Assembly: GCA_004764695.1 (NCBI GenBank)
Contig: SMSO01000007.1
Location: forward strand, 575,501-639,500
Reading direction: 5' to 3'
Length of the DNA stretch: 64,000 nucleotides
From: Schizochytrium sp. TIO01
Lineage: Eukaryota > Sar > Bigyra > Thraustochytrida > Thraustochytriidae
Each line of letters opens with the position of its first letter. The first letter of the stretch is position 1. Under the pieces are notes generated by a model. The model was given only the letters and a program-made list of their open reading frames with translations, ran no database searches and had not been told where the DNA came from. Positions 2,232-64,000 of the stretch are shown here, piece after piece. A program made the position numbers and the translations under genes.

Positions 2232-2596
2232 CTACATTCCACCGTTTGCTCGGCATCATCCCCACTATTTTCGCTGAGAACTCTCTCCCACGAGACGTCA
2301 TCAGTCAGAGAGGTTCCAGATCGATTTGGCAAAGGATCTTCACAGAATGCAATCCAACGGGTACGGTCAGGCCTTGCCTCTTTGGCAGGGAACAAGCCTT
2401 TTTTTACCCTTGGCGCAGAAGCAAGCTGCGCTTTTGGAAGATTTGTAATATTTTTTCGAACAGAACATCCAATGTGCAGATGAATATCAGCGTTTGAGCT
2501 ACCAACCACTAATTCTGGTATTGGGTCATCCTCGTGTTCAGGCGGTTCTAACTGTACGCACGATATTTTGATCCTTTCTTTAAATTCCTCAGAATC
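2141..2596 (-). CDS. acidic linker segment of the transposase-Ulp1 element
   Basis: This frame continues directly from the 3' end of the large transposase frame but one register away. Its upstream part overlaps the transposase terminus and reads as plausible coding sequence (DSDSEEFKERIKIS, then PPEHEDDPIPELVVGSSN). The switch must fall near 2590-2605, because a TGA closes this frame just upstream. Further on it reads DDVSWERVLSENSGDDAEQ, an acidic and probably disordered linker between transposase and protease. The start at 2509 is GTG, which argues against an independent gene. I read it as part of one long, frame-interrupted polyprotein. Confidence 0.5.
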   Translation of the reverse strand, partial: DSEEFKERIKISCVQLEPPEHEDDPIPELVVGSSNADIHLHIGCSVRKNITNLPKAQLASAPRVKKGLFPAKEARPDRTRWIAFCEDPLPNRSGTSLTDDVSWERVLSENSGDDAEQTVECRKKQQQVLSASYTTCGIKGSGWANLAPRTS

Positions 2597-5499
2597 AGAG
2601 TCTGTACTTCCTCAAGAATTTCTACACAAGTTGAAAGGACTCTCTGAACACCAATATCACCTTGAGGTTCAGGCTTGTCACCGTTCTCTCCTTTAGTGAA
2701 AAGGCTGCCGTTTACTAGTATATTCATTGCTATCAGGCGCAAGCTGATGTGGTCTTTCAATTTTTTATCGATGCCAACCTCGTCGAGGACTGATCGATCT
2801 GTTTCGGTGGGTACCCCTCCTCCCGTTAGTTTTCGAAGAACTTTCTGGAGGTAACTTATGGCTTTTCTTTTATGTTCAGGTCGTGCGAGAGCTTTTGCAA
2901 AGGCAAATATCACAGCAATGGCTTGCTCTACGGCATGCGCCAGTGTTGAGTTCTCCGTGCTGTCGAAGAAAATCGGCACCACAGTGGCTCGCGTCCTCAT
3001 TATATGATTAGACTCCAAAACAGAACCAACACTTGGCATCATGCTGAATCCCATATGTAAGTCATGAGAAACGCACAAAGGCAGTCGTGCATCTGGATAA
3101 GGGAGCTCATTATGCTCGATTTTACCATTGAACGCATCATTGACGAGGGAGTTTATCGTGAGGTGGTGGCTGAATGGTTGGTGAATTAAATACGAAGGTA
3201 AACCTTTTATCTCAATCATTCTGGAACGATTGTATTTAGCAACCACTTTGGTGAGTAGCGCGTCAGCACGAACAATACCAATGGTAGCACTTGCAACAGC
3301 CTGGTTCAACATACGATGGAACACCTCATTTGCATTAGTACCTCTATTTCCCACAAGATGATTTTTGCCATTGATTTTAGTCTGTAGAACGAGACCTGGA
3401 GGGTCGCTCAAGCAGCCCTTATGAACATGTTCAAAAAGGCCTGCAATATACTTGTCTAGGCCAACCCCTGTGGCGGTCTTAGATAAAAATAATCCATGCC
3501 GAAACCCATTTGGATAGGGTCCGAAATGTTCTACACAAGCGTTACTAGATCTTGGTTTGCAACGCTCTCGTACGCGATGAAGCAGGTCAGCACTAAGATC
3601 CATCTTCGAGTTCATAATATAGTGAGTCTTAAAAACTTCCATGATGCGCTTATATAGAACCTCTGGTTGTGGGATTCGGGTTTCAACAGCTTGATTGATA
3701 AGCCGATCTTTTGTGAAGTTGCTCTTACTCTTATGTTCCTGTTGAACCTGCTTCACTCGCTTGTGGTCGCGCTGAAGAACAGCATTTGCTAATGCAGTCA
3801 TGAATGCAGTACGAGGTGCTCGGCTTTCGTTGCTGCTTTTCACCATTATTTGCTCCCAACGCTTGAGCCAGTGAAACAAATCGAGCTTGATGGGGACTCC
3901 CTTGAAAATTTGTGATAGGCATTTATTTAATTTTCCACAACATGTATCTGTCCAAATACATTCAGGCCGGTAATCCCGACCATGCATTTCCTGGCGTAGC
4001 TTGACGAATCGTCCTAAAGCTTCTCTTATTTCCCTCTCGTTCTCACTGTTCGCCAACCCACAATAGAATATAATCTGGTTGTGTTCGTTACTGATTGTGA
4101 GTAGGGCTTGATATGGCTGGTATATCCTAAAGGATTTGTCTTGGTCTTGGAATCGAAGTTTACAGCGCTCGGGAAACCGGAACGTGCAATCGATAGCGAT
4201 ATACCTGGCGCTGTATGACGCAATTTCGCGAAGCAAAGGTCTTGCCTCTCCTTTAAACTGGTCAATACATAATTCGTCGAGAAATTTGGAGCTTAATCGA
4301 TATCCGTTGTACTCCATGTCGAAGTTGCCAAAATTTTCAGGAGCCGTGATTGATTTCTCTTGCGTTTCTTCTTCATTTGAGCACGATGCTGATTGATTTG
4401 TCTGGTCGACCTGTTTGCTCGCTTGCTCAGCTGCTTGCTCGGCAGATTCTTTATTGATCTTGTCTCGGGCAAGTCGCTCGTTGCGCTGCTGAATAACCAT
4501 TCGAGCATACTCCACGCTCAGTAAGTCCTTTTCTCGGAGTATCTGGTTGATTGTAGTCTCCAAAAGTTCTTTCCAACCCTCTATAACCCTCGTTCGGTCC
4601 CTCTCACGTCGAGCAGTGCTGAGTTGCTTAATTTTCTCGCCGTTTTTTGTATCTAGGATGTTCTTAAGCTCATGGAAGACATCAACAACTGTAGAGATAT
4701 TGAGAGCAGACTTTAGGATTTTAATCTTTTTTTCTCCCAAACTCTTGATTTGCTTTAAATCAAATTCCAGTAATTCACAAGCAGCCGTCTCCTTCCTCAA
4801 AACCTCAGCAGAATATTTTTGGGGCTGGAATTGAATTTTAGTTTTGAGCGTATTTGTCGAGTTCTCTGCTTGCTTTTGGAAAAGACTTGGGATTGTATTG
4901 GGGCCAGCTTCATCGAAGCGCCGAGTGTGTTCTCCTAAGCTTGATGCATAGTAAAAGTACTCTAGGCGATTGTGGTTCCGTACCTGAGCCTCATTGAAAG
5001 CTTCTGCAGCCCATACGGGACTTTTCAACCACAATTGGCTGAGACGTTGGCTAACCTCTGTTTCAATCCCGTGGCGTGGGGTCAAGGTCAGGCCAAAGCG
5101 TATCCGTACGTCTGCAGGGCACAAACGAAGAACAACTTCACTTGTGTTACGAAATTCTTCATTGCACATTTTACATTTATACTTTTGAGCTACGAGAAAC
5201 CAATTTCCAGTCGCACTAGCAATCTCTCGGTAATTTGGTGCCCAGAAGCCATCGTCACCAGAGACGCTGACAAGAGGTTCATCCAAATGCGCTTTTTGGT
5301 TGCAGTATGGACATGGCATGCGATTGTTCATCGACGCATACATTTTTGCTGGATGCCATAACCCAACGCTGCGCTGGTGAAAGTACTCTGGTGCAATTTG
5401 TTGACCTCTTTTTACTTTTGGCAGTTTGGGTTTCTGGAGCCAAGTGATTGTCCCATCAGGAACAATGTCGTACAGGGACTGGCATGTTTTGATATCCAT
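2548..5499 (-). CDS. large DDE/D transposase with N-terminal zinc-binding domain
   Basis: The 983-codon frame opens with ATG at 5499. Residues 35-115 hold paired cysteines (C63-P-Y-C66 and C109-K-M-C112) preceded by YFHQRSVGLWHP. This pattern resembles the DUF6729-like zinc-binding module of KDZ-type (Kyakuja/Dileera/Zisupton) transposases. Residues about 240-375 are helical, with an Ala/Gln/Lys-rich linker. The catalytic core appears to start at D437 (IAIDCTF), followed by D518 (IWTDTCCG), DLFHW about 25 residues later, and E725 (RGTNANEVFHRMLN). This is an RNase H-fold order with a long insertion before the Glu, as in KDZ superfamily enzymes. A downstream Ulp1 domain fits the same group. 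The frame also reads upstream of the ATG (to about 5615), and further remnants in other frames reach about 5755. The assignment to a transposase is strong; the family name is inference. Confidence 0.78.
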   Translation of the reverse strand: MDIKTCQSLYDIVPDGTITWLQKPKLPKVKRGQQIAPEYFHQRSVGLWHPAKMYASMNNRMPCPYCNQKAHLDEPLVSVSGDDGFWAPNYREIASATGNWFLVAQKYKCKMCNEEFRNTSEVVLRLCPADVRIRFGLTLTPRHGIETEVSQRLSQLWLKSPVWAAEAFNEAQVRNHNRLEYFYYASSLGEHTRRFDEAGPNTIPSLFQKQAENSTNTLKTKIQFQPQKYSAEVLRKETAACELLEFDLKQIKSLGEKKIKILKSALNISTVVDVFHELKNILDTKNGEKIKQLSTARRERDRTRVIEGWKELLETTINQILREKDLLSVEYARMVIQQRNERLARDKINKESAEQAAEQASKQVDQTNQSASCSNEEETQEKSITAPENFGNFDMEYNGYRLSSKFLDELCIDQFKGEARPLLREIASYSARYIAIDCTFRFPERCKLRFQDQDKSFRIYQPYQALLTISNEHNQIIFYCGLANSENEREIREALGRFVKLRQEMHGRDYRPECIWTDTCCGKLNKCLSQIFKGVPIKLDLFHWLKRWEQIMVKSSNESRAPRTAFMTALANAVLQRDHKRVKQVQQEHKSKSNFTKDRLINQAVETRIPQPEVLYKRIMEVFKTHYIMNSKMDLSADLLHRVRERCKPRSSNACVEHFGPYPNGFRHGLFLSKTATGVGLDKYIAGLFEHVHKGCLSDPPGLVLQTKINGKNHLVGNRGTNANEVFHRMLNQAVASATIGIVRADALLTKVVAKYNRSRMIEIKGLPSYLIHQPFSHHLTINSLVNDAFNGKIEHNELPYPDARLPLCVSHDLHMGFSMMPSVGSVLESNHIMRTRATVVPIFFDSTENSTLAHAVEQAIAVIFAFAKALARPEHKRKAISYLQKVLRKLTGGGVPTETDRSVLDEVGIDKKLKDHISLRLIAMNILVNGSLFTKGENGDKPEPQGDIGVQRVLSTCVEILEEVQTLILRNLKKGSKYRAYS

Positions 5500-11609: not shown

Positions 11610-16465
<4,856 letters not shown>

Positions 16466-39424: not shown

Positions 39425-39801
39425 CCAAACAAACAAACAAACAAACAAACAAACAAACAAACAAACAAACAAACAAACAAACAAACAAACAAACAAACAA
39501 ACAAACAAACAAACAAACAAACAAACAAACAAACAAACAAACAAACAAACAAACAAACAAACAAACAAACAAACAAACAAACAAACAAACAAACAAACAA
39601 ACAAACAAACAAACAAACAAACAAACAAACAAACAAACAAACAAACAAACAAACAAACAAACAAACAAACAAACAAACAAACAAACAAACAAACAAACAA
39701 ACAAACAAACAAACAAACAAACAAACAAACAAACAAACAAACAAACAAACAAACAAACAAACAAACAAACAAACAAACAAACAAACAAACAAACAAACAA
39801 A
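39425..39801. repeat. (CAAA)n microsatellite, about 377 bp
   Basis: About 94 tandem CAAA units with no interruption that I can see. CAAA contains no stop codon in any of six frames, so long open frames (up to 205 codons, reading CLFV or KQTN) cross it. They are not genes. Short GACT and CAGA repeats flank it on either side. Confidence 0.97.
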
Positions 39802-58479: not shown

Positions 58480-61170
58480 ATGCAGGGACATGGTTCAAGG
58501 GCTCGTACGACTGGACTCTCGTCGTCATCTTCAAGGGCAAGCACAGGGCTATCGTCAACCACAACTTCAATTACAAATTCATCATCGTCCTCATCATCAA
58601 CTAACAATTCTTCATCTGGAGTAAAGGTAGAAACTTCTCAAGTGTCACAAATAAATGAAGAAGGCCCAGTTCTTCAGATCGAGACCCCTGCTTGGCAACC
58701 ATCCGATGTTTTCGCTCCAAATAACATTCTCCATATCAAAGAGAAACGACCCTTGGGAGCAACTCGTGGGAACACAACTGTCCCTCAAGCACCAGAACTC
58801 ACAGTTCGAATTCTAGCTCAAGGTGTTGGTTGTGAGAAGAATTTGGCAGTTCGTGCTACATTATGGAGCTGTGGACCTATCTCGCAACAAGCCCGCTTTC
58901 TTGCTAAAAAGGGCTTGTCCAAACTCACTCCCAAAAATGGTGAACATTTTCGCACTCTTCGAGGTAAGACCACCATTGAATGTCAGCAAAATATTGCCCT
59001 CTTTGGCAGTGTCACAGAGGATGGTTATCGCACAGCTGTCTTACGTTGTGTTTTCTCACGTGCTGCACGGATTCCCTGTAAACGGAATTACATTACACTC
59101 AAACTAGAGTGTGTCCGTGTAATCGCACAGCAAGATAGTTCTCCAAATCAAAACTCCCTCAGTAGTCGAGGAACAACAAATACACCATCTGCCCGGCAGG
59201 AAAGCCCCCGTACTAGGGTGCGGGGAGGGCTCCCACCAACCCCACCTAGATCAGCAACAAGACCACCAAACGGAGATGCAGACGCCGCAACCTTAAACGG
59301 AGGAGCGCTTATAAGTGCTTCTTCCTCCTCCTCCTCCTCTTCTTCCTCTGTGCCCGTTCAACGAGGCCCTTCTCAACAGTTTCAACAACTCTCCAACACA
59401 ACGCAGCCAGTCTCTTCCCATGTACATCCTGCACGGGTTGAGTTGAGTGAGGAAGAGGAAGATGATGACGAAGATGATGACGAAGAGGAAGAGGAAGATG
59501 AGGAGAGCGAACACTCCAGCGATCCCCGGGGTTCTTCCCTTTCCCAAGACTCCCTTGCCAAATCCTCGGCAAGTAGTAAAACCACCACAGCGGAGATCGT
59601 TCATGTCGCTGAGGTTCCTGAAATTCTCACCTGTCGCATTTCAATCTCAGAAAAGGCCATGTGCCCTCGTGCATGCGATGCGCGTCGCAAGCAGGACCCC
59701 ACACGCGCCCGCATGCAACATCAATTGCAAGAACAACAGCAACAACAGGGATATGTTGCACAAGTGGTGCAGCAGCAGCAGCAGCAACAACAACAACAAC
59801 AACGACAGCAAAATCTAATTTTGCAACATCTTGGTCTACCTGGCACAAGCCAGGTTGTTCAGCCTTCAAGAAACACCGGCGCTACTGGTGCCTCTGCAAT
59901 GAGCTCACAAGGCCTCGATATGGCTTTCCTGCAAAGGATGCAAGCTGCTGCGGCTGCGGCTGCGGCTGCCACAGGAGCTACACCACAGTATTATCCTTCA
60001 TTACACACGGAACCTGCTTTACAAGCTTCCTCCGGCATTAACTCTTTAGAGCAACCTCAAGTAAAGCAAGAGATTCAGCAATATCTTCAGTATCTCAGTG
60101 GTCACACCAATGGCAATAATGAGATCCATCACATTAACAGAGATAATCATACTGAGTGGCTCCAGCAACTTTATGCCGCAAATAGCTCTTCCTCCATCAT
60201 TCCACAACAGCATCTTCAACAGCCTTATGGAAACGAGGACCATCTTCTTCGAACTCTGCATGCAACAGCTGCAGCTGCAGTGGACCCAACAACAAGAGAT
60301 ATCATTCTGCAAGAATTATGTGCAAGACTACAGAACAACCCAGAAGCCATGGCTGGATTTCTTGCTTCTTCTCTCCCTGCATCCTCATCCTCATCAGCTT
60401 CGTCTCAGCTTCCCCCTCTCTTATCACAACAACAGAGACAGCGACAACTGCAGTTATTGCAGCACAATCAAGGAGATATTCCCCCCTTTTCTCGAACTGA
60501 TGCCCCACATCTCTTGTCTTCTCAGCAGATGAATTCCTCGAGCTCAAATCTCACAACAGAGCAACCCTTATTCTCCACAAGAGAGGATAGCTGGCCATTA
60601 CCCTTTCCAAATCGAGAAAGAGCATCTTCACTGGTACAGTCTGCAGCGTCGTCAACTTCATCACCTCTGCAAAACCTGCTGCCGCAAAACTCACCAGTGA
60701 ACCCCACAAACGTCGCAGCTTCGTTATTCTCTTCTCAAAACGCTCGCTCCGCTTTAGGCTCGTCTTCTTCGTCGTCGTCATCAGCCTCGTCATCTCCGGT
60801 GCTTGAGGCCTTGGCATCAGCGCCCTCCACACGGATTCCATTTGGCAACACGCAAAATTCTTCGCTAGCAGGAAACCCTGCATTACGACTGTACCATTCA
60901 GACGCCAACCAATACACCCAGACAGGTGCTTTACAGCAGTTGATGATGTCCCAGGATAACGAGCAACAGCTTGGCCAGCAACAGGTCCAAAGCTTCCAGG
61001 CAACGCCTGATTTCCAAAACCTTTGGTCCAGGCGATCAACCATCCACCAGCAGCAACAGCAACAGAATATGTTTAATACTAGCAACAGCAGCAGCGGTAA
61101 CAATGGTGGTCTTCACAACCGGAACAATGATTACAACAACACATTTCCCCGCGCACCCCACCAACGCTGA
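58480..61170 (+). CDS. Ser/Gln-rich protein with one unrecognised globular domain
   Basis: This is an intact, intronless 896-codon frame with ATG at 58480 and TGA at 61168. Residues 1-60 are Ser/Thr-rich. Residues about 105-216 form a compact, non-repetitive segment with alternating hydrophobic strands: LTVRILAQGVGCEKNLAVRA, then ARFLAKKGLSKLTPKNG, TTIECQQNIALFGSVTEDGY, and AVLRCVFSRAARIPCKRNYI ending in KLECVRV. It looks like an all-beta domain with a basic loop, possibly DNA-binding, but I do not recognise it. After it come a Ser run (about 279-291), an acidic block (about 320-344), a Gln-rich region with a poly-Gln run (about 429-444), a poly-Ala run (about 487-498) and a Ser/Gln/Asn-rich tail. 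This composition is typical of transcriptional regulators or coactivators, so a nuclear role is inferred. Its flanks are non-coding. Confidence 0.75.
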   Translation: MQGHGSRARTTGLSSSSSRASTGLSSTTTSITNSSSSSSSTNNSSSGVKVETSQVSQINEEGPVLQIETPAWQPSDVFAPNNILHIKEKRPLGATRGNTTVPQAPELTVRILAQGVGCEKNLAVRATLWSCGPISQQARFLAKKGLSKLTPKNGEHFRTLRGKTTIECQQNIALFGSVTEDGYRTAVLRCVFSRAARIPCKRNYITLKLECVRVIAQQDSSPNQNSLSSRGTTNTPSARQESPRTRVRGGLPPTPPRSATRPPNGDADAATLNGGALISASSSSSSSSSSVPVQRGPSQQFQQLSNTTQPVSSHVHPARVELSEEEEDDDEDDDEEEEEDEESEHSSDPRGSSLSQDSLAKSSASSKTTTAEIVHVAEVPEILTCRISISEKAMCPRACDARRKQDPTRARMQHQLQEQQQQQGYVAQVVQQQQQQQQQQQRQQNLILQHLGLPGTSQVVQPSRNTGATGASAMSSQGLDMAFLQRMQAAAAAAAAATGATPQYYPSLHTEPALQASSGINSLEQPQVKQEIQQYLQYLSGHTNGNNEIHHINRDNHTEWLQQLYAANSSSSIIPQQHLQQPYGNEDHLLRTLHATAAAAVDPTTRDIILQELCARLQNNPEAMAGFLASSLPASSSSSASSQLPPLLSQQQRQRQLQLLQHNQGDIPPFSRTDAPHLLSSQQMNSSSSNLTTEQPLFSTREDSWPLPFPNRERASSLVQSAASSTSSPLQNLLPQNSPVNPTNVAASLFSSQNARSALGSSSSSSSSASSSPVLEALASAPSTRIPFGNTQNSSLAGNPALRLYHSDANQYTQTGALQQLMMSQDNEQQLGQQQVQSFQATPDFQNLWSRRSTIHQQQQQQNMFNTSNSSSGNNGGLHNRNNDYNNTFPRAPHQR

Positions 61171-62100
61171 TAATACAAAACGCATCTATTATATTAATGC
61201 GCAAAAATTCGTCAATCCTGCTTCTGTGTTTGATGCAAACACAACCGATGTTGATATAATTTGTCTTGGCTGTGAAAAGCAAGCATTCGCTACTTTTGTA
61301 CAAATGCTTTCTTTTTCTATTCTCAACCCTCCTTAAGAAATGATTCAGCCTTGAGGCATTGTTTTATCAAGGTCATGAAGGATAACATGATCACCATTCT
61401 CCTGTATGCTTTTCGTTCATCTATTCATGATATTTGCAAAATTGAAACTTGTTATGGTAATTCCGTTTTTAGACTCTTTTTTAAACATGGCTTCCTTTCC
61501 TTCCTCTTGTCTAATCGCCGTCCAAACTGAAATTTATTATCTACCACTTCGTCTCACGTTAGCCAGTACGACTAGATCCTAGAATCAGTGCGCCAAGGTA
61601 GCTAGCTATCACTACTTTCTTTCCAGTTTGCAATAGTTTACATCTCTGGAAAAATACGATTCAAAGCGGAGAGGTTGTAAATTCGCAGGCCAGCTTTTCT
61701 CCTTGAGATTATATTTTGAGAATGTATACCTCCTTTACTACTTGGATGTAAACTTATAGATTTATTTCTCTCCAATGAAATAATAGAAACAGCACCATAA
61801 ACCATGCTCTACTGCCACCTAATACCTAATGGTAGGTTTACACAGAATGGAAACCCAACATATATAGAACAACTTAAACTTTAAATTCAGTTTGAACAGA
61901 TACGTCAAGTGGTCTTGAGCCCAGCTCCCAGTTTCCTCAATCTCTCATACACATCACTCTGATAGCAGCGAAGGTCTGCACTTATGAAAAGGTTAGAACT
62001 TACAAGACCTCCACACGGTAGTGTCTATTCCATATTAATGATAGGCCTATATATTATAGTTATTCAGATCTTGGTTAAAAAATAGAGGTTCGATAAGAAA
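61171..62100. other. 3' flank of the 896-codon gene and left flank of the IS607-like element
   Basis: AT-rich sequence with no gene supported. The left end of the IS607-type element should lie here. This family has no terminal inverted repeats, so the boundary cannot be fixed by eye. Confidence 0.4.
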
Positions 62101-62650
62101 ATGGCATGGCCAAGGAACCACCAATCTCCAAACACTGCATGTGAAGCAAACCTTCAATACAAGCCAGCAAAGCACTTCAACCAGAAGTTTGGAATTCAGC
62201 GAGTGTCCTTCGGGGGCCTTCCCGGAGGCAATTGCATGTACGCAAGTGGCAACGTTGAGCATCCCTATGACTGAGGTTTCTTCCGGCGCCCGCGAGCTAT
62301 GCAGCACTGGCCGAACAATTATCTACGCCAGAGTGTCCTCCCGCCAAGAGAAGAGAAAGCTCCAAACGCCAGATTGCCAGACGTCCCCGCCGCCTACAAA
62401 GACATCGGTAGAGGGATTGACTTGAAAGGCCGGACTTGAAAGACCCTACTGGACACATATGACAACGGCGGATCTCGCCGAGCTGTGGTCAGGTACCGCG
62501 ATTGACTTCTACAAATCGCTGTCGACCTCCTTAAGGATCTTGTTTTCTAAAAAAATGCACAACTCGCGGCCAAGATGCACACGCCGGGGACTTCGACACC
62601 TTCAAAAAACTTGCCATCACCGTATTTGGACCGTCGCATTACGGAAAAGT
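62101..62650 (+). pseudogene. IS607-type serine recombinase (TnpA), decayed
   Basis: ATG at 62101 opens a frame that reads YKPAKHFNQKFGIQ and then PGGNCMYASGNVEHPYD. This is a recognisable MerR-like helix-turn-helix plus PGG wing of IS607 TnpA, with the middle of the winged helix apparently lost. It stops at 62272. One base over, the next frame reads RTIIYARVSSRQEKRKLQ (62312-62365), the N-terminal strand and catalytic-serine motif of small serine recombinases; the nucleophile is probably the first Ser of VSS, at 62336. A further shift gives DIGRGIDLKGR, LLDTYDNGG and RAVVRYRD (62401-62502), the usual order in this family, broken by stops at 62437 and 62503. It once catalysed excision and integration of the element through a circular intermediate. 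At least two frameshifts and two stops make it inactive. Confidence 0.85.
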
Positions 62651-64000
62651 AGCAGCGCAAAATAGACGGCAATGACCCAACGGGAAGAAGAGAGCGCGCG
62701 TGGAGGCACACAAGACGACCAAGAAGGAGTATCTAGTTTGTGCTAAAAAGGTTCGTGTCTATCCAACGAGAAATGGTTGGCGTCGCCAGAAATGCTTACA
62801 ACATTGGTGTTGCCTTTCAGTATGATTAGTCCAAAGGTAAGGACGAAGTCATGGCCCTGCATCAAGATACATGCTTCAGGAAGGGCCCTAACACAAACTA
62901 AGTCCTGAATGACGAAGGAGGTAATCCTAAAATGTTCGGCGATAGCAATGGAGAAAAGAAAGGATTGTGTCTTAAAGAAGGCTTACGCGCGCCTGGTTGG
63001 GTCTTCGAAGTACCACAAGCTGAGCGTAATTCAGGATTCGTTGATTTTTTCAAAACTTTCGATACTGACCAAGCCCAAAATGACAAAACAGCCGCCACCA
63101 AAAAAAAGGCACTCGCTCTTTTAACTGCAAAACGGGATAAAGCCCAGAGGTTGGGTCGCGCGATTTTTTCTCAAAAGCTTTCGTACCTTTATGGAAAAGT
63201 TTCCCGACCAAGCAATTAATTCAAACGAATCGCCTGGGTCATGTTCGCCTCTGCTTTTTGCATGAATGAAAGGTACGGTCTGAAGAGGAGGCACCCGATG
63301 TGCACCATAGTACCTTTGTCTTGGACCCAGGAGTACGCTCATGGCAGACTATATGACGACGCTGATGGCCAAGCCATTGAAGGAGAGACAAAAAGGAATA
63401 AAAAACATACTCTTTCTCTGTCACTGTGCTAACATAAATTATGTCGTCCAAGGAAAACTGGCTCAAAAGAAAAGAGATAACCTGCCTCAAGACGTGCATA
63501 CCTATGACACTCCTCAAAATTAAGAACAAGACCACCGAGATTCACCGCAAGCTTGGACGTTGCTTCCATATGGAAACTACCGTGCTATCATGTTGCCTAG
63601 ATTTGAAACCACTTGGGTGGTGAACAAGTTAACAAGTTAACGCGATGGGTTAAAAGCAAGTCAATTCGAATAATATTCGTTGAGACCTCTTCAGCTTCTT
63701 CCCGTCCAGCGCTCATCCACAAAGCCGGGGTTTTCCACTGATGTAAACTTGTGATTTGCCGAGAGGGTTATGCTTCAAAAACATGCAATAAACGCGGGTA
63801 TCTACAAGCTTAGAAACCGATTGTTTTCAAATGCCCAAAATGCAAACACGTAGCCGATCGACACCGGAGGCATGCTTTCGCGCTACCTACCCAAGGACAT
63901 GATTGTAAAAAAAATACGATCAAAAACTAACCTGCGATTGGGACTTAGACCTAACCCCCCAAGCACCGTATTAGGAAATGCGGGTTTTGCAAATGTTACA
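62577..64000 (+). pseudogene. TnpB/Fanzor-type RNA-guided nuclease remnant, truncated by window end
   Basis: Homologous pieces lie in TnpB order across three frames. (1) 62577-62770: lysine-rich lead, then CAKKVRVYPTR, the N-terminal strand; stop at 62673. (2) 62779-63219: GVARNAYNIGVAFQYD (the family GxxRxxYN), then APGWVFEVPQAERNSGFVDF, matching W..VP...R..A..D; stops at 62827 and 62899. (3) 63309-63341: STFVLDPGVRS, the RuvC-I motif with Asp at 63324. (4) 63342-63390: HGRLYDDADGQAIE, one frame over. (5) 63520-63640: NKTTEIHRKLG and NYRAIMLPRFETTWVVN, like the RuvC-II region of IS607-linked TnpB and Fanzor2. (6) 63763-63870: EGYASKTC then CPKC and DRH, the zinc ribbon and RuvC-III region. 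In active relatives a guide RNA from the element end directs DNA cleavage. Pairing with a TnpA remnant points to the Fanzor2/IS607 group. Frameshifts and stops make it inactive. Confidence 0.85.

Follow-up and report, generated by a model that had tools for sequence, protein, structure and literature searches.

A decayed IS607-Fanzor2 copy in Schizochytrium sp. TIO01, and a tnpB frame held open through tnpA that probably encodes an N-terminal extension

The right end of the 64,000-nucleotide stretch of Schizochytrium sp. TIO01 DNA analyzed here (the window; G000:C6:575501-639500, in an assembly of 64.06 Mb and 37 contigs) carries a decayed, nearly full-length IS607-Fanzor2 copy, and we consider it probable that, in the lineage of such elements running from cyanobacteria to eukaryotes, tnpB continues backward in the +1 frame through tnpA and there codes for an N-terminal extension of the nuclease. 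Taken alone, the window copy is ordinary. The evidence for the extension comes from its unbroken relatives in the same genome and from bacterial and viral loci, in which stop codons are strongly depleted from the +1 frame of tnpA, third codon positions within tnpA are constrained, and a protein motif encoded by the overlap persists after tnpA itself has gone.

The window copy and its relatives in the same genome

A 10-kb piece spanning the window end (L016) served as the sequence of the window copy. In a gapped blastn alignment it is collinear with the unbroken ~2.2-kb element at locus L027 across window 62049-64014 (1393 of 2175 columns, 64%, are identical and 244, 11%, are gaps), so the copy, which occupies 62049-64000 (+ strand) within the window, extends 14 bases beyond it to L016:4014; ~60 bases at the left end of the L027 element have no aligned counterpart. 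From this alignment, translation, and the right flank we read, all on the + strand, i) a tnpA (serine recombinase) remnant with a broken frame at 62101-62732, matching the alignment columns of L027 tnpA (L027:3370-4068) and carrying YARVSS near 62320-62337; ii) a remnant of the extension (the stretch of tnpB frame that overlaps tnpA) at 62563-62747, where the first TnpB match starts at L027 query residue 5, well before the core; iii) a tnpB/Fanzor2 core remnant with many stops and frameshifts at 62748-63905, from KVRVYP to the relative's stop position; and iv) a remnant of the 3′ noncoding end, a candidate guide-RNA scaffold, at 63906-64000 and continuing to 64014, placed by the alignment and by the strong folding of the relatives' 3′ end.

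An earlier note, written from the letters of the window, had recognized a TnpB/Fanzor remnant beside a recombinase in a series of short protein words, and these are indeed present on the + strand in the order given, distributed over three frames. They are no chance matches, because L027 TnpB matches the window copy in a tblastn-type search at G000:C6:638063-638647 (window 62563-63147; E 5.4e-37, 46% identity) and again at G000:C6:638855-639367 (window 63355-63867; E 2.1e-15, 35% identity); together with the collinear DNA alignment, these matches bear out both the family identity and the collinearity claimed. Both L027 genes have aligned counterparts in the window copy, and frameshifts and stops disrupt both tnpA and tnpB, which indicates that the copy is dead, as the note had said, and old. 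The proposed MerR-like helix-turn-helix (HTH) stands for L027 TnpA, where the match to NCBIfam NF033518 begins at residue 27; its counterpart in the window is degraded. The note's interpretation of the element is supported; the overlap between its genes, which proved to be the element's most unusual feature, could not be seen there.

Family profile scores were taken from the unbroken L027 relative rather than from the broken window copy. L027 TnpA scores 144.9 bits against NCBIfam NF033518 transpos_IS607 (cut-off 110) and 72.5 bits against Pfam Resolvase (cut-off 23.3), and its best PDB match is the ISC1926 TnpA; it is a serine recombinase of the IS607 family with an N-terminal HTH. L027 TnpB scores 51.1 bits against PF07282 (cut-off 26.3) and 37.7 against PF12323 (cut-off 21), lies under the cut-off for PF01385 (20.4 vs 30.5 bits) and for IS607_TnpB NF038280 (62.8 vs 350 bits), and, as a 491-residue piece, misses that for RNA-guided TnpB, NCBIfam NF040570 (95.8 vs 100 bits). 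Its TnpB-type RuvC, the DPG of RuvC-I (ALDPGVRSF), and a C4 zinc ribbon make it a Fanzor2, and its closest solved relative is the mimivirus Fanzor2 L79; LLPKFET is a candidate, chosen by eye, for the repositioned glutamate (E_alt) in RuvC-II. By analogy with characterized relatives, TnpA would carry out both cutting and insertion, with the element in double-stranded form, and TnpB/Fanzor2 would be a nuclease guided by an RNA that starts in the 3′ end of the element and continues into the right flank.

Full-length relatives, which the note had suspected elsewhere in the genome, do exist. A genome search found at least 103 TnpB stretches, a lower bound because 87 of 336 candidates were scored; at least 14 are full length and stop-free at 90-100% identity, and many are decayed at 30-60%. 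Twenty regions of ~9 kb enclosing the best matches to TnpB and TnpA were fetched, and 19 aligned with the L027 element (the 20th) as a discrete ~2.2-kb block or part of one, with no long shared flanks among the alignments. The 232-codon tnpA is unbroken in 10 of the 20 regions, the tnpB core in 14, and both genes in eight (L027, L028, L032, L034, L036, L038, L040, and L041); in the part of tnpB outside the overlap, dN is smaller than dS in 9/9 pairs compared. A transcript-derived predicted ORF from MMETSP (P0001) is 91% identical to L027. The best explanation is a family long resident in the genome, with recent unbroken members. The L027 family includes unusually well kept copies, and with recombinase and Fanzor2 both unbroken in individual young copies, this eukaryotic genome offers a setting for testing how such elements work in eukaryotes.

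Five copies (L031, L033, L035, L044, and L046) have in common an insert of ~294 bases near tnpA codon 27; their tnpA, with the insert and a TAA, is dead, and tnpB is open in three of the five. We did not accept the insert as an intron in a functional gene because its ends show no clean GT-AG and because the TAA interrupts tnpA in the same copies (and in others); this subgroup may have been mobilized by the TnpA of other copies. Three young copies (L034, L040, and L043) adjoin fragments of old copies, ~70% identical, and insertion sites might thus be marked as preferred. Another TnpA/TnpB copy, apparently a separate one, lies at G000:C7:513606-515330 and has an open resolvase frame of 222 amino acids and TnpB pieces at 68-82% identity.

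The right end of the element reads CTAAGAG in 17/18 copies and CTAGGAG in one, followed by A (11 copies) or T (7). The position of the left junction differs by a few bases among copies; CAG is found in the 9 bases preceding the conserved left end in 14/19 copies, compared with 11% of positions drawn at random from those flanks, L027 being one of the five copies without it. The 3′ 138 bases of the relative fold at -39.6 kcal/mol (z -4.37; 1 of 200 shuffles as good), and over 12 copies the pairing is kept in 96.5% of cells vs 36-45% when slid. Covariation gives this fold no support, because among the 12 copies no pair changed on both sides and compensatory changes are thus absent. We regard the 3′ noncoding end as a candidate guide-RNA scaffold. 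Rfam yielded no match inside the elements and five listed matches, mostly below threshold, near the bacterial locus L138; a CRISPR direct repeat match (L138:7235-7258) lies near the cyanobacterial pro-Fanzor element there.

The +1 frame through tnpA

The L027 tnpB lies in the +1 frame of tnpA, in which an open stretch of 662 codons begins shortly before tnpA and lasts until tnpB ends. Database relatives have the same layout, many with 160-230 residues ahead of the core. Under the arrangement we propose, tnpB would not start at the end of tnpA; its +1 frame would instead be kept open through most or all of tnpA. Profile searches supplied 80 viral and 80 genome loci among the matches listed (at least 80 of each); tnpA lies upstream in 92, is near full length in 73, and 53 were kept after dereplication (12 viral and 41 genome). 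These 53 bacterial and viral tnpA genes (9441 codons) contain 59 stops in the +1 frame (0.62%) vs 601 in +2, and 23 of them have no +1 stop at all, a state reached by none in +2. By comparison, stops make up 5.66% of the +1 codons in 145 other ORFs from these loci, where 2/204 windows of 170 codons are open. The imbalance survives clustering of tnpA at 70, 60, and 50% identity (+1 vs +2 stops 46 v 356, 34 v 266, and 11 v 91), the last level leaving 8 clusters. L027 tnpA itself has no +1 stops, where 4.9 are expected from tnpB codon usage and 6.8 from that of three window ORFs; none appeared in 10/2000 and 0/2000 draws, respectively.

Could the open frame be a by-product of codon usage or of the amino acid make-up of TnpA, attached to an ordinary window copy? 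Synonymous resampling by the local codon usage of other ORFs predicts 510 +1 stops in the 53 genes (p≤0.05 in 50/53 loci), and synonymous shuffling within each gene lowers this expectation to 224, so part of the depletion does sit in codon choice; 224 is nonetheless far above the 59 observed, and p≤0.05 still holds in 37/53 loci. Nor is depletion a general property of IS607 recombinases. Twelve IS607 elements outside the group, taken from differing hosts among 40 listed of 218 plasmid records, have 140 +1 stops in tnpA where 145 are expected from the codon usage of each element's own tnpB (of tnpA itself for L237). As in our elements, tnpA is followed by tnpB in 11/12 (listed as hypothetical proteins in L247 and L248), the exception being L237, for which no tnpB is listed; unlike our elements, the relative frame of tnpB is 0, 1, or 2 and +1 stops in tnpA are ordinary. 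With the suppression of stop-neutral third positions and the persistence of the motif beyond tnpA, both described below, these results largely refute the by-product explanation, which we now regard as quite improbable.

The RuvC-I motif does not cleanly mark the overlapping group. Six of the 12 plasmid controls have DLG or DIG, four have no motif by pattern, L237 has no listed tnpB, and L242 has DPG yet shows no depletion (16 +1 stops, 15.5 expected), so DPG alone does not predict the overlap, and we dropped it as a marker. Among 30 further IS607 loci, tnpA was found in 14; the seven with a DPG tnpB have 0-4 +1 stops, and the seven without DPG have 2-8.

Where the second base of a tnpA codon is C or G, a third-position change cannot create a +1 stop. 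At such stop-neutral fourfold sites, 208/680 differ in tnpA vs 689/1479 in tnpB (p=1.6e-12; 17 pairs, not fully independent in that three use the near-identical L050, L051, and L052), and at fourfold sites with T in second position, 70/422 differ vs 142/366 (p=2.6e-12). The same constraint is visible between L027 and L034, which differ at 15/715 sites in the overlap (4, 4, and 7 at the three tnpA codon positions) and at 69/1273 sites in the tnpB-only part (21, 17, and 31). Something besides coding could also suppress third positions, such as a regulatory or structural RNA or DNA element inside tnpA with the open frame incidental to it, and third-position suppression alone cannot separate protein from RNA constraint; but such an element would have to deplete stops tenfold in one frame only and leave a motif recognizable as protein where there is no tnpA overlap, and we find this scarcely credible. 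The overlap is best read as dual coding.

A more serious alternative is that ribosomes slip into +1 inside tnpA, programmed or not, to make TnpA-TnpB fusions, with no separate start for a long TnpB. It would fit with tnpB lying in +1 of tnpA, two exceptions apart (L171 is +2), in the placeable loci with a tnpA match, and with +1 openness reaching to or near the start of tnpA in many loci. A fixed slip site, however, needs openness downstream only; in-frame +1 ATG codons occur near the tnpA start in many loci; and two proteins discussed below, P0045 and P0055, keep the motif with a methionine of their own and without tnpA. We therefore think slippage rather unlikely, and that the long form is presumably translated from a start of its own. 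We rejected the idea that a long TnpB is obligatory in bacteria, which holds for ATG starts only: of the 53 loci, 24 have an ATG no more than 40 codons from the core and 29 have none there, and a GTG or TTG can be found at a distance of up to 48 codons in 53/53, leaving room for a short TnpB. In the 57 database proteins that have at least 100 residues before the core, the nearest methionine is more than 40 residues away in 26 and more than 100 in 14; L031, L033, and L035 lack the ATG that L027 would use for the long form.

A conserved motif in the extension

A motif profile, built exclusively on 48 overlap segments from bacterial and viral loci, was applied to 217 distinct proteins, drawn from 120 of 141 and 120 of 1094 matches listed. 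Among these listed matches, 116/217 have at least 60 residues before the core. Whether the other frame could still encode TnpA was judged by its H.DRL motif, a test that 7% of shuffles pass; a similar test for YxRVS was useless because 65% of shuffled extensions pass it. H.DRL is permitted in 83/116, and the motif scores of all 83 exceed the best of 5800 decoys (16.6 bits). The remaining 33 do not permit H.DRL, and in 15 of these the motif is above the best decoy; the motif is not universal, as 18/33 fall below the decoy limit and six of those lacking it have other N-termini.

An other-frame TnpA coding score was computed for 21 of the 116. Six overlapping controls score 229-282, as does P0148 (234), which the H.DRL test had falsely scored as negative; P0136, P0207, P0192, P0172, P0195, and P0088 score 67-129; and P0045, P0099, P0106, P0179, P0049, P0156, P0035, and P0055 score 34-56, inside the range of 24 shuffles (maximum 61). 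The last eight have no trace of tnpA in the other frame and nevertheless score 16.8-34.2 bits for the motif (P0049 barely over the best decoy), and so the motif outlives tnpA. We infer that the N-terminal extension of TnpB/Fanzor2 arose by overprinting of tnpA.

The conserved motif consists of one helix (P-F/Y-W..S..LW) and one strand (SWFS/T). AlphaFold2 predicts the core of the 618-residue L027 long form well and the extension with low confidence as mostly disordered, with helix 94-102, strands 111-114 and 134-139, and helices 121-128 and 156-183; in a model of the bacterial L138 long form, the two motif places are likewise occupied by a helix (123-133) and a strand (163-167), with disorder elsewhere. 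No match to the extension was found in Pfam or PHROG, and the motif profile found no solved chain of the TnpB/Fanzor family, mimivirus Fanzor2 included. As we picture it, the extension would comprise ~150-210 residues, mostly disordered around one conserved helix and one conserved strand, and our guess is that it may give the nuclease an extra contact with its RNA or DNA and act as a genetic lock on the two genes.

We lean slightly toward a broader proposal, in which an overprinted extension would set apart the IS607 TnpB group ancestral to Fanzors, later lineages without tnpA would have kept the conserved helix-strand part as a normal protein segment, and the N-terminal halves of Fanzors, which are variable, would go back to a second reading of a transposase gene. 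If overprinting did occur, the same DNA serves both recombinase and nuclease, which are not easily separated; and if the overlap is truly coding, it would explain why the nuclease stays with the IS607 recombinase, reveal a route by which a new protein segment arose, and imply that in bacteria this group's TnpB/Fanzor2 proteins have been truncated in annotation or expression, which bears on tests of their activity.

Known systems and the rest of the window

The elements resemble the eukaryotic and viral IS607-Fanzor2 elements described in passages of Bao and Jurka 2013 (PMC3627910) and Yoon et al. 2023 (PMC10711439) in having an IS607 TnpA adjoining TnpB/Fanzor2, DPG at the first RuvC motif, a zinc ribbon, and related cyanobacterial elements, and apparently also in lacking evident terminal inverted repeats. 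The word "overlap" occurs 0 times in the main texts of these two papers, and their relevant passages mention neither a gene overlap nor a tnpA-encoded N-terminal extension; passages of PMC11061315 likewise make no mention of an overprinted frame. No overprinted tnpB frame or extension was found in the open-licence literature searched, and as far as our searches go the overlap is undescribed.

ISDra2 TnpB (8h1j, 8exa, and 8bf8) and Cas12f align with the 618-residue model only from about residue 191, which leaves the extension outside the alignment. A fold comparison with mimivirus Fanzor2 (TnpB-like protein L79, PDB 9b0l) spans model residues 88-618, a range that gives end points only and barely tests the N-terminal part; the N-terminal part of 9b0l has no match to the extension profile, and since the profile does not find this chain, we dropped the structure as proof of the extension. 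Viral relatives were also sought by single proteins, and none was confirmed.

Elsewhere in the window, an 896-residue glutamine/serine-rich ORF at 58480-61170 (+) ends ~900 bases before the dead element, and the open frame around it has no Pfam match. Two perfect and very long microsatellites lie at 11613-11992, (TAT) x 126.7, and at 39426-39801, (CAAA) x 94. A 983-residue ORF at 2548-5499 (-) scores 34.0 bits against DUF6729 (cut-off 27), has a sub-threshold match to a MULE transposase, and is perhaps another mobile element.
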